Positions 10,676 through 61,042 of a stretch of DNA of 64,000 nt are shown one piece after another. Where the stretch lies: the NCBI RefSeq assembly GCF_000015045.1, contig NC_008609.1:2427501-2491500 (forward strand). Direction: 5' to 3'. A program made the position numbers and the translations under genes. The notes below the pieces were generated by a model. It did no database searches. It was not told where the DNA came from and saw nothing but the letters and a program-made list of their open reading frames with translations. The DNA comes from Pelobacter propionicus DSM 2379. Lineage in GTDB: Bacteria; Desulfobacterota; Desulfuromonadia; Geobacterales; Pseudopelobacteraceae. The number at the start of each line of letters is the position of its first letter. Position 1 is the stretch's first letter.

Positions 10676-11055
10676 TCATCGGCATCGGCACCGACATCGT
10701 CGGCATCCCCCGTTTCCAGCGTCATGTGGACGACCCCGACAGTTCTCTCCTGCGACGCATCTTTACTGACCAGGAACGAAGCTACTGCAACGCCCGGAAG
10801 AGCGGCGCTGCCGCCTGTTTCGCCGCCCGCTTCGCCGCCAAGGAATCCTTCCTCAAGGCCCTGGGAACCGGGCTGAGCGACGGCATATCCTGGCATGACA
10901 TGGAGGTGGTCAACGACGAGCTGGGCAAGCCGGAGCTGCGCCTCTCCCGCAGGGCGGAGGAGCTATTCCGGAAAAAGAAGGGGGCAGGCCTGTTCCTCTC
11001 CCTCTCCCATGACGGCGGCTGTGCCGTTGCCATGGTGGTTCTGGAGTCCCTATGA
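10672..11055 (+). CDS. acpS: Holo-[acyl-carrier-protein] synthase
   Basis: Transfers 4'-phosphopantetheine from CoA to acyl carrier protein. 127 aa, with the family motifs [12 protein letters not shown] at the N-terminus, [18 protein letters not shown], and [16 protein letters not shown] at the C-terminus. Coupled by ATGA overlaps to pdxJ upstream and to nnr downstream, the common arrangement in this group of bacteria. Confidence 0.96.
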
Positions 11056-12629
11056 AAATCGTCATGTCACAGACCATGCAGGAGATGGACAGACGGACCA
11101 TGGAGGAGTACGGCATCCCCGGTCTCGTTCTGATGGAGAACGCAGGACGCTGCTGCGTGGAGGAGATTATCCGCCACTTCGGCCATCTGGAGGAGAAGCG
11201 GGTGCTCATCCTGGCCGGCAAGGGGAACAACGGCGGGGACGGCCACGTCATCGCCCGCCTGCTGCTGGGTCAGGGGTGGCAGGTTACCCTGCTGGTGCTG
11301 GCTGAGCAGGAACAGATCAGGGGCGACGCTGCCGCGAACCTTGAGCTGCTCCCCCATGACCTGCCCCGCTTCCGCACCGGGGAGGCTGAGTTTTCCTCCC
11401 TGCACGCCGTCGACTTTCGTCAGGCCGACCTGATCGTGGACGCCATGCTGGGAACCGGCCTGAACAGCGACCTGGGCGGCGTCTATCGCGAGGCGGTTCA
11501 GCTGATCAACGGTTCCGGCAAGCCGGTTATGGCGGTTGACATCCCCTCCGGCATCCACGGCAGCAGCGGCAGGATTCTGGGGAGCGCGGTGAAGGCCGAC
11601 CTGACCGTCACCTTTGCCTGCCCCAAACTGGGGCATGTGCTCTACCCCGGCGCCGAGCTGACGGGGCGGCTGGTGGTTAAAGACATCGGCATCCCCCCTG
11701 CCCTGCTGGAACAGGCGCCCGGTTTCCAGTACCTGGATGAGGAGAGCATGGCCCCCCTGCTCCAGCGGCGCGACCGCCAGGGGCACAAGGGGAATTACGG
11801 CCACTGCCTGTTCATTGCCGGCTCCACCGGCAAGAGCGGCGCCGCGGCGCTGTGCGCCAACGCCGCCGTGCGTGCCGGCTCCGGCCTGGTGACCCTGGGA
11901 GTGCCTGAGCGGCTCAACCCTATCCTGGAGGTGAAGACCACCGAGGCCATGACCGTCCCCCTGCCCGACTCCGACGACGGCCACCTGTCGGGGAGAGCCT
12001 TCCACGAGATCGTCAGGCTGCTGGAGGGAAGGGACGTGCTGGCCATCGGCCCGGGCATCGACCGCAGACCGGAGACCGTGGAACTGGTGCGCAACCTGGC
12101 GGAAACCGTGGAACTCCCGCTGGTGATCGACGCCGACGGCCTGAACGCCCTGGCAACGGACATGAGCGTCCTGAAATGGAACCGCTCCACCGCCACGGTG
12201 CTGACCCCCCATCCGGGGGAGATGGCCCGCCTGCTTGGTGCCCCGCTCCCCTCCGAACAGGCCGATCGCATCGAGCTCTGCCGTGATTTCGCCACCAGCT
12301 ATGACGTGTACCTGGTGCTCAAAGGGGCGCGCACCATCATCGCCTCCCCCGACGGCTCGATCGCCATCAACTCCAGCGGCAATCCGGGCATGGCCAGCGG
12401 CGGCATGGGGGACGTGCTCACCGGCATCATCGCATCGCTGATCGGCCAGGGATACGAGGTCCGGGACGCCTGTTGCCTGGGGGTCTTCATCCATGGCCAT
12501 AGCGCCGACCTGGTGGCTCGCGACAAGGGTGAGGTCGGCATCACTGCCACGGATGTGGCCGAGATGCTCCCCTACGCCCGGAAAAAGCTGATGGAGCGAA
12601 ACTCCCCCTCTGCCATCCGCTACGCTTGA
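11052..12629 (+). CDS. nnr: Bifunctional NAD(P)H-hydrate repair enzyme (epimerase + dehydratase)
   Basis: Repairs hydrated NAD(P)H. The N-terminal half is the NAD(P)HX epimerase (YjeF_N) with [17 protein letters not shown]; the C-terminal half (from about residue 230) is the ADP-dependent dehydratase (YjeF_C) with [20 protein letters not shown] and the [15 protein letters not shown] loop that holds the catalytic Asp. At 525 aa it is a standard fusion. It ends at 12629, and the 228 nt to the next gene are almost entirely occupied by the folded element at 12646-12828. Confidence 0.96.
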
Positions 12630-12645
12630 CCTTCAAACCAGCATC

Positions 12646-12828
12646 CGGCAGTCGGGGGTATCCGCAGAGAGCGACTTATCCCTGCTCCGTCGTGGTTCCC
12701 GGCGAAATGGAGCATGAGGCAGCCGGACTGTCTGAACCCGCCAGGGTGAGTTTCCGGCTGCCGCGAAATGAGCCACGGAACCACAGGAGCAGGGATCCGG
12801 AGCGGAAAGCGGATACCCCCGACTGCCG
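12646..12828 (+). repeat. Long nested inverted-repeat / structured leader before the CBS gene
   Basis: A 183-nt element that folds almost end to end. Outer stem P1 is a perfect 20 bp (12646-12665 with 12809-12828). P2 is a perfect 11 bp (12678-12688 with 12786-12796), P3 a perfect 8 bp (12692-12699 with 12777-12784), P4 a perfect 10 bp (12718-12727 with 12753-12762), capped by ACCC/GGGT (12736-12739 with 12744-12747). The P1-P2 internal loop is 12 nt on each side. The P3-P4 internal loop contains GCGAAATG on both strands, as a direct rather than an inverted repeat. It ends 29 nt before the CBS gene start. It could be a cis-regulatory RNA, a small RNA or a MITE-like insertion. I do not match it to a riboswitch class. 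Confidence 0.75.
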
Positions 12829-12857
12829 CACAGAGAATCAATCCAAGGAGACTACCC

Positions 12858-13310
12858 ATGCAGACCGTTGCAGATATCATGACCACAGAGGTCATCACCG
12901 TGAAACGAGAGACCACAGTGCGGGAACTGGCCGAAATCTTCAAGGAGCACCCCATCGGCAGCCTGCCGGTGGTGGACGACGGCGGCGCTCCCACCGGTAT
13001 CGTCACCGAATCGGACCTGATCGAGCAGGGGCGCAGCCTGCACATCCCCACGGTCATCTCCCTGTTCGACTGGGTCATCCCCCTGGGGGGCGAAAAGAGC
13101 CTGCAGCGGGATCTGCAGCGGATAACCGCCCAAAACGTGGGCGAGATATACTCCCGCGAGTTGGTCTGCATCGCCCCCGACGCGCCGGTCAGCACGGCAG
13201 CCGACCTGATGAGCAGCCGCAGGCTGAATTCCCTGCCGGTTCTCCAGGAGGGAAAACTGGTGGGGATCGTGTCGCGCATCGACATCATCCGCAGCCTGAT
13301 CAACCGATGA
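12858..13310 (+). CDS. CBS-domain pair protein
   Basis: A 150-aa protein made of two CBS domains: the first begins with VADIMTTEVITVKRETTV and contains PIGSLPVVDD, the second contains ELVCIAPDAPVSTAADLM and NSLPVLQEGKLVGIVSR. CBS pairs bind adenine nucleotides (AMP, ATP, SAM, c-di-AMP) and usually act as sensors. I chose the ATG at 12858 over an upstream one because AAGGAG sits 7 nt before it and because the longer N-terminus would be read through the folded leader. The cdaA gene 5 kb upstream makes c-di-AMP sensing a thought, not a claim. It overlaps tsaE by 4 nt. Confidence 0.85.
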   Translation: MQTVADIMTTEVITVKRETTVRELAEIFKEHPIGSLPVVDDGGAPTGIVTESDLIEQGRSLHIPTVISLFDWVIPLGGEKSLQRDLQRITAQNVGEIYSRELVCIAPDAPVSTAADLMSSRRLNSLPVLQEGKLVGIVSRIDIIRSLINR

Positions 13311-20696: not shown

Positions 20697-21164
20697 GGCA
20701 GGCCTCCCCAGTGCATTGTGTAGCCATACTGATCCATACGGAAATTTCCCTCCAGAGCTTCACCCACGACCCGCACATATAGCGAAAACAGACTCATCGA
20801 CATGATCCGCATAGCTTCCAAAACAGGCAAAAAAAACCACACTTCCCGTGTATAAACCGAAAGCGTGGCTCTTATGCAAAATATTCTTCCCTCACTTCGA
20901 CAACCCCTCTATCCCTCTTCGGGATGGTAGTTTTGCGACACACGGTTACCCGTGCTGTGCACCGTCGGTGGCAGTATATAACTGAATCAATTGAGTTTAC
21001 TGGTAGACAACCATGACAATGTCAACCTGTCTACTCTTTAACGGCTTATGCCAGCCATTCCCAGACTCACTCAGAGTCAATCCGGGATACCGAGCAATTG
21101 CATCGTCATTATATCGGCTGTCGTCAGGACTCTATCGCAGCAATGAGCCGAAAAAGACCTGCTA
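20697..21164. other. Intergenic gap, no gene recognised
   Basis: 468 nt between the secreted-protein operon and the 21165 gene. It should hold the operon promoter on the minus strand. I see short dyads (ATCCC-tcttc-GGGAT near 20910-20925) but no coding frame with a ribosome site, no tRNA and no riboswitch motif I recognise. Confidence 0.4.
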
Positions 21165-56220: not shown

Positions 56221-56297
56221 TGGTCGGTGCGACTGGATTCGAACCAGCGACCACTAGACCCCCAGTCTAGTGCGCTACCAGGCTGCGCTACGCACCG
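56221..56297 (-). tRNA. tRNA-Pro (anticodon GGG)
   Basis: 77 nt including an encoded CCA (56221-56223). Acceptor stem CGGTGCG/CGCACCG, anticodon arm CTAGA-CTGGGGG-TCTAG giving anticodon GGG, and T-arm with TTCGAAT. Its first 10 bases are also the end of merR. It is the integration target of the island: the 3' part recurs, degenerate, at 21704-21722. Confidence 0.97.
56226..56244 (+). repeat. Candidate right attachment site, within tRNA-Pro
   Basis: GGTGCGACTGGATTCGAAC, the T-arm to acceptor stretch of the tRNA seen from the plus strand; matches 21704-21722 at 14 of 19. See that entry. Confidence 0.4.
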
Positions 56298-60967: not shown

Positions 60968-61042
60968 GTTCTACTCCTTGATCATGAATTTTGCCCGATC
61001 CACAAGGGGAGACTGTCCTCGTGGTTCTTGGCGTGGTCCCGC

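Follow-up and report, generated by a model that had tools for sequence, protein, structure and literature searches.

The MITEs of prokaryotes are usually viewed as decayed leftovers of insertion sequences. Two well-described groups of repeats, Correia/NEMIS and ERIC, resemble the element studied here in being short, mostly intergenic and multicopy, with inverted ends and foldable transcripts, and the accessible text of PMC10969869 reports effects on mRNA, via RNase III or RNase E, for Correia and ERIC elements. The present element differs from them in its IS1380-type ends with 5-bp duplications, in its three conserved GA-rich internal loops, and in a body common to several orders and phyla. 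It shares with the insertion sequences of the IS1380 family both its inverted ends and the 5-bp duplication, but has no transposase gene.

A MITE from the same bacterial group is Chunjie of Geobacter uraniireducens Rf4 (Chen et al. 2008), which, as described in the available portion of PMC10969869, measures 178-235 bp and has 38 copies plus 57 partial ones, one of them inside an operon. Chunjie is probably, rather than provably, another family than the hairpin of Pelobacter propionicus, as judged from a count of matches and not from the Chunjie sequence. Only two matches to the hairpin family were found at E 1e-5 in genome G086, which we take to be that of G. uraniireducens Rf4. Multicopy sequence families, some of them palindromic, have also been documented in Geobacter and Pelobacter genomes (Aklujkar et al. 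2009, 2010, 2012; PMC2700814, PMC2996986, PMC3543383), and one is said, in the part of PMC2700814 available, to occur also in P. propionicus. Compared by description only, and within the accessible portions of those papers, these families are presented without transposon ends or the structure of the hairpin. The P. propionicus repeat may already figure in a supplement to the earlier genome papers; among the open-access papers listed in our literature search, none was seen to describe it.

The hairpin occupies positions 12646-12828 (183 nt) of the window, by which we mean the whole 64-kb stretch of P. propionicus DSM 2379 DNA that was analyzed, and lies between two genes named nnr and the CBS-domain gene in the first-pass annotation. 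The features of the locus are as follows.

11052-12629, plus strand: nnr, the upstream neighbor
12633-12637, no strand: expected left 5-bp duplication, TCAAA, placed by reference to intact copies
12638-12645, plus strand: left outer end CCAGCATC, degraded; intact copies have, for example, CCTAAATC or CCTGAAAA
12646-12828, plus strand: hairpin body of the probable mobile element; plus is the strand on which related copies favor G-U over A-C
12646-12665, plus strand: P1 5' arm, 20 bp, in the inverted-repeat region, partner 12809-12828
12678-12688, plus strand: P2 5' arm, 11 bp, partner 12786-12796
12692-12699, plus strand: P3 5' arm, 8 bp, partner 12777-12784, followed by the conserved loop GGCGAAATG
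12718-12727, plus strand: P4 5' arm, 10 bp, partner 12753-12762, followed by the conserved CTGTCTGA
12753-12762, plus strand: P4 3' arm, with a conserved GAGTT just before it
12777-12784, plus strand: P3 3' arm, with the conserved loop AATGAGCC just before it
12786-12796, plus strand: P2 3' arm
12809-12828, plus strand: P1 3' arm
12829-12836, plus strand: right outer end CACAGAGA, strongly degraded; intact copies have, for example, AATCTAGG or AATCCAGG
12837-12841, no strand: expected right 5-bp duplication, ATCAA, placed by reference to intact copies
12858-13310, plus strand: CBS-domain gene, the downstream neighbor

The four nested perfect stems of 20, 11, 8 and 10 bp that the first-pass annotation had described are all present at their positions. 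The paired motif it noted in the internal loop, GCGAAATG, is likewise present; it forms a direct repeat, with one copy (12702-12709) facing the other (12763-12770) across the loop. The hairpin does end 29 nt before the start codon of the CBS gene at 12858, and the AAGGAG-like site of that gene (12846-12851) falls outside the element. The original boundaries held for the stems, but comparison with intact copies revealed that about 8 nt had been missed on each side (12638-12645 and 12829-12836). The minimum free energy of the hairpin is -122.7 kcal/mol, compared to a mean of -73.6 for shuffled sequences (z = -10.2), and none of 200 shuffles was equally good; the hairpin structure is real. An Rfam search of the hairpin with E up to 5 returned no family match, riboswitch classes included. 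Elsewhere in the window, all on the minus strand, Rfam matched a c-di-GMP-I-UAU riboswitch at 20895-20970, a tRNA at 56224-56297 and an L20 leader at 60974-61033. The 183 nt hold no open reading frame of transposase size. An intrinsic terminator was considered and rejected, as by eye there is no T run directly after the stem, where CACAGAGAATC is found instead.

The first-pass annotation had proposed that the element be compared by BLASTN against its own genome, and the element proved to be repeated, with seven other places found at 74-85% identity and E 1e-9 or better. A covariance model, R1, was then built from eight own-genome copies (alignment A2), and it found the element at full length in 15 places of the genome, counting the window copy, with E values no higher than 6.4e-14; there were also weaker and shorter matches. 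Such multiplicity is what the annotation had set against its own idea of a leader. By a crude scan for open reading frames, one that misjudged the CBS gene beside the window copy, these 15 copies are intergenic, lie in varied orientations and have differing neighbor genes. The same scan placed the upstream gene on the same strand for 11 of the 15 and found three copies crossed by an antisense open reading frame of 173-272 aa, which is probably spurious in each case.

With its own genome counted each time, R1 had matches in 15 of 57 relatives, in 29 of 141 genomes of the order, and in 25 of 297 genomes of the phylum. The presence of the element is patchy: the sole other species of the genus among the 57 has none, and several genera of sister families have many. 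Altogether 161 copies were collected, with lengths of 157-200 nt and nearly all at 173-200 nt. A distant blastn search of plasmids and phages with the element gave no match.

Several variant forms were observed among these sequences. The P. propionicus genome has shorter hairpins (L050, L051, L052, L053, L054 and L056, of 60-76 nt, and L048, of 95 nt) whose ends are by eye like those of the element and from which most of the body is missing; in L050, ATGAA flanks the CCTG..CAGG ends on both sides. These are probably derivatives of the element formed by internal deletion. Two opposed copies about 30 bp apart were found both in G055 (C25:2321-2477 and 2504-2685) and in G048 (C235:1639-1819 and 1851-2007), and one member of each pair is a 157-nt form that has no apical stem. 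G095, a member of the order, yielded 13 copies of 183-184 nt, most of them with closely similar ends. Seven have exact 5-bp duplications and further copies are located at contig ends, making G095 a good place in which to seek recent activity of the element.

The CBS gene is present in 55 of the 57 genomes, and we compared the gap upstream of it at the best 30 loci among those 55, with the P. propionicus genome included. The nnr-CBS gap measures 228 nt in P. propionicus, -17 to 155 nt in the 29 other syntenic relatives, and 12 nt in the other genome of the same genus; the hairpin element was found in none of the 29. Because the orthologous gaps of all 29 relatives examined are empty, the insertion can be dated to this lineage, where the element very probably entered a gap that had been short. 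The 155-nt gap in G005 (L136) holds a different palindrome, GTAGCAGCGCTACGCC, which resembles the short-RNA family of PMC2700814 (Additional File 4). The nnr-CBS gap may have received different repeats in different lineages.

The true ends of the element were first spotted by eye in the flanks of the copies and were subsequently tested on sets of 141 and 161 copies. The element extends 8 nt past the stem as originally drawn, with the end consensus CCTRAANNCGGCAGTTGG. With intact ends taken to mean CCT/CCC and AGG/GGG at the spacing expected for either side, 26 of the 161 copies had both ends intact, and 13 of these 26 had an exact A/T-rich direct repeat of 5 bp beside the ends. Shuffling gave a mean of 1.42 such duplications, and none of 5000 shuffles reached 13. 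No other repeat length from 3 to 8 was comparable, the next best being 2 of 26 at length 4. The smaller set of 141 contained 13 copies with both ends, of which six had exact 5-bp repeats. A duplication scan of 61 copies that was anchored on the CGG..CCG body, and not on the true ends, gave nothing convincing. The window copy itself has no clean 5-bp duplication (TCAAA versus ATCAA), and its left end is fair and its right end poor; its insertion consequently rests on the family and on the empty sites. With a degraded right end, and in a genome where a search for an IS1380 transposase detected none, the window copy is probably immobile.

IS1380-like insertion sequences were looked for through their transposases, using PF13701. 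L107 (G021) has CCTAAATCCGGCAGTTGG at one boundary and, in inverted form, CCTATAAAAAGCAGTTGA at the other, and these match the element ends with one and three mismatches; two or more matches arose in 1 of 200 shuffles. A second type of end, CCTGAATCCGTGA, is exact at both ends of L106 (G007) and is found at the ends of L108 (G053) with one and zero mismatches, and within the same order it also terminates another group of element copies (e.g. L210, L222 and L227). ATATA stands on either side of L108. The proteins of L107 and L108 both match PF13701; against NCBIfam NF033539 (IS1380), which has a cut-off of 180, the L108 transposase passes with a score of 298 and that of L107, at 149.8, falls below. 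The body of the element is, by eye, unlike the inner ends of these insertion sequences.

No PF13701 transposase was found in the P. propionicus genome. Among the 15 element-bearing genomes of the 57-relative set, two had a match (G053 over the cut-off and G048 with a fragment below it), and in 10 further element-bearing genomes one was found in G064 over the cut-off, one in G097 below it, and none in the other eight. G095 had no PF13701 match, and neither type of element end was found at the transposase locus of G064. The source of the transposase is therefore inferred from the end sequence and the length of the duplication.

The above considerations indicate, with a probability that we place near 0.85, that the window hairpin is a MITE whose family has IS1380-type ends and A/T-rich target duplications of 5 bp. 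Its members are short, have no transposase gene, have terminal inverted repeats in common with IS1380-like insertion sequences, show target duplications, and are present in dispersed copies with sites empty in relatives, and the MITE-like repeat that the first-pass annotation listed as its second choice is the description that stands. An IS1380-family transposase would have moved the element in trans. Read through on the operon mRNA, the element would form a long hairpin which, by analogy with Correia and ERIC, would most likely influence how the transcript is processed, or how stable it is, between nnr on one side and the CBS gene with the genes behind it on the other.

We then examined how far the fold is kept. 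MAFFT, used without structure, aligned 134 of 141 copies (alignment A4). The seven that were excluded comprised three forms of 157 nt and one of 173 nt, as well as three copies with lower scores, of which two came from the P. propionicus genome. The structure was that of the window copy, except that the apical stem was shifted to the majority register, as the window copy's own P4 register misfits most copies (38.9% paired), and that the weak pairs 31/189, 20/200 and 34/186 were removed. Across the 134 copies 90.9% of cells were paired, versus 31-46% when partners were slid, and at 58 of 61 pairs at least one copy had changed on both sides. The covariation score was 0.511, compared to 0.174 for shuffled and at most 0.111 for slid alignments. 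Covariation was seen in every long stem, P2 being the weakest with 78.5% of cells paired. The lack of covariation that the first-pass annotation had named as a refutation is thus the opposite of what these copies show. The best-kept unpaired bases are GA-rich and surround three internal loops (GAG/CGAA, GGCGAAATG/AATGAGCC and CTGTCTGA/GAGTT), which can be read as tandem sheared G-A motifs.

Mismatches between the arms were then used to ask about strand. The same mismatches are read reversed on the other strand, and G-T is also the milder mismatch in single-stranded DNA. The two arms of each stem were compared by aligning the 5' arm with the 3' arm in reverse complement, under a scoring that gives every mismatch the same weight, and G-T and A-C were counted in the 154 of 161 copies that are 170-190 nt long. 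The outer stem had 250 G-T versus 53 A-C, the P3 stretch 37 versus 11, and the P4 stretch 97 versus 14; P2 was reversed, at 52 versus 92. On the columns of A4, the outer stem again had 214 G-T versus 40 A-C, and the other stems were near even (P2 43 versus 57, P3 40 versus 34, and P4 24 versus 20). The signal is firm in the outer stem only. There, G-T was commoner in 14 of 17 genomes, A-C in one, and two were tied. The P. propionicus genome is the sole one with an A-C excess (six G-T versus eight A-C), and G095 had 14 of each. With each genome, position and type counted once, there were 136 G-U versus 36 A-C, counts that are uncorrected for relatedness. This excess of G-U over A-C, seen in related genomes, suggests that selection acts on a single folded strand, the plus strand of the window, as either RNA or single-stranded DNA; the body would then have been kept as a folded strand of that one polarity. 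Since the outer stem contains the transposon ends as well, part of the G-U signal may come from fixed left-right differences between those ends.

A wider family was sought with the apex pattern TGTYTGARCCCGNAGGGYGAGTT, which occurs in at least 120 stretches of a collection of species genomes; the matches listed include Nitrospirae, Betaproteobacteria, Acidithiobacillus, Acidobacteria, Armatimonadetes, Desulfobacterales and others. The pattern was absent from viral contigs. R1, run on 94 of the 120 apex loci listed, matched 33 loci not labeled Geobacter at E 1e-5 or better, and 28 of the 33 span the full length of the model. Conservation of the apex is circular among loci selected by it, but outside the apex the bases near GAGCG, GGCGAA, TAGA and GCGAAA are invariant or nearly so in 32 aligned copies (alignment A5, with 30 copies of other lineages picked from the R1 matches among the apex loci). 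A search of the phylum conducted without the apex pattern gave 22 genomes outside the order, and seven copies from outside the order, inspected by eye, had similar loops and other outer stems. The copy of Acidithiobacillus concretivorus bears the IS1380-like end CCCAAAAACGGCAGTTG and is flanked on each side by ATGAA. In the cross-phylum set the G-T excess is weak, at 80 versus 50. Among nine loci of other lineages, the only Rfam match was a tRNA. At betaproteobacterial loci (for example L229, L253 and L260) the apex motif lies near a second hairpin of the CTTTCTTGGCGAAGCAAGAAAG kind in repeats from Zoogloea and Denitromonas, which may represent a composite related to this element.

These matches permit a tentative reading, to which we give somewhat less than even odds, of a cross-phylum family in which a hairpin of about 180 nt, selected on one strand as RNA or single-stranded DNA, has three GA-rich loops (GAGCG/GCGAA, GGCGAA/GAGCC and CTGTYTGA/GAGTT) and moves between different transposon ends, the two IS1380 types among them, in Desulfobacterota, Nitrospirota, Acidithiobacillia and other phyla. 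If so, the fold would be the working part, recognized by the transposase or by a host RNA-binding protein.

The first-pass annotation had favored a metabolite-binding leader of the CBS gene, which would be a new cis-acting riboswitch. Strong structure with covariation and a position just upstream of the ribosome-binding site are what such a leader would have, but the element is absent from 29 of 29 examined orthologous gaps, the 14 other full-length copies in the genome stand beside other genes in several orientations, Rfam offers no match, and the copies carry transposon ends and target duplications. The leader is refuted as an ancestral one, and we regard any form of it as highly improbable. 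No better placed is a REP-like element moved by a Y1 transposase acting on hairpins (RAYT/IS200), for which the hairpin form and three PF01797 matches in the P. propionicus genome might be cited. It was rejected on the ground that the element and PF01797 do not co-occur: 52 of the 57 relatives have PF01797 regardless of the element, PF01797 gave no match in G040 or G041, both of which have the element, and the best R1 match near the three P. propionicus genes scores 15 bits over 32 nt. The 5-bp duplications, moreover, fit a DDE transposase, and this explanation is strongly disfavored.

Two further explanations concern why the fold is kept. Template switching can match both arms of a quasi-palindrome without selection, and repair of this kind could maintain the palindrome so that its covariation reflected DNA mutation instead of selection on a strand. 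The absence of an asymmetry between G-U and A-C in the P. propionicus genome, and in P2 to P4 on the aligned columns, agrees with this, but the explanation predicts equal numbers of G-T and A-C mismatches, from which the outer stem of most genomes departs greatly, and it leaves the near-invariant loop bases across phyla unexplained; we consider it improbable. Rather less unlikely, though still doubtful, is that the structured body functions as RNA, carried between transposon ends as a passenger and selected as RNA in the host. The covariation of all the long stems, the outer-stem G-U excess across genomes and among distinct events, and the similar loops within different outer stems in other families and phyla all argue for it. 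Against it, no conserved gene partner was seen, presence is patchy, the P. propionicus genome has no G-U bias, and part of the signal could arise from selection on active source copies or on a single-stranded DNA intermediate, or from the fixed end differences noted above.

As a MITE in an operon gap, the P. propionicus element is ordinary in kind; it is unusual in the conservation of its fold and in its breadth. Its inner sequence varies freely, and its pairs, its loops and its near-constant length are kept across very distant bacteria, with outer-stem mismatches that are mainly those a folded single strand tolerates. It also cautions against taking every long covarying hairpin upstream of a gene for a riboswitch. 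If the reading given here is true, conservation would lie with the fold, and the transposon ends would be what is exchanged; it then becomes testable whether RNA or single-strand structure is something that a mobile element can live on.
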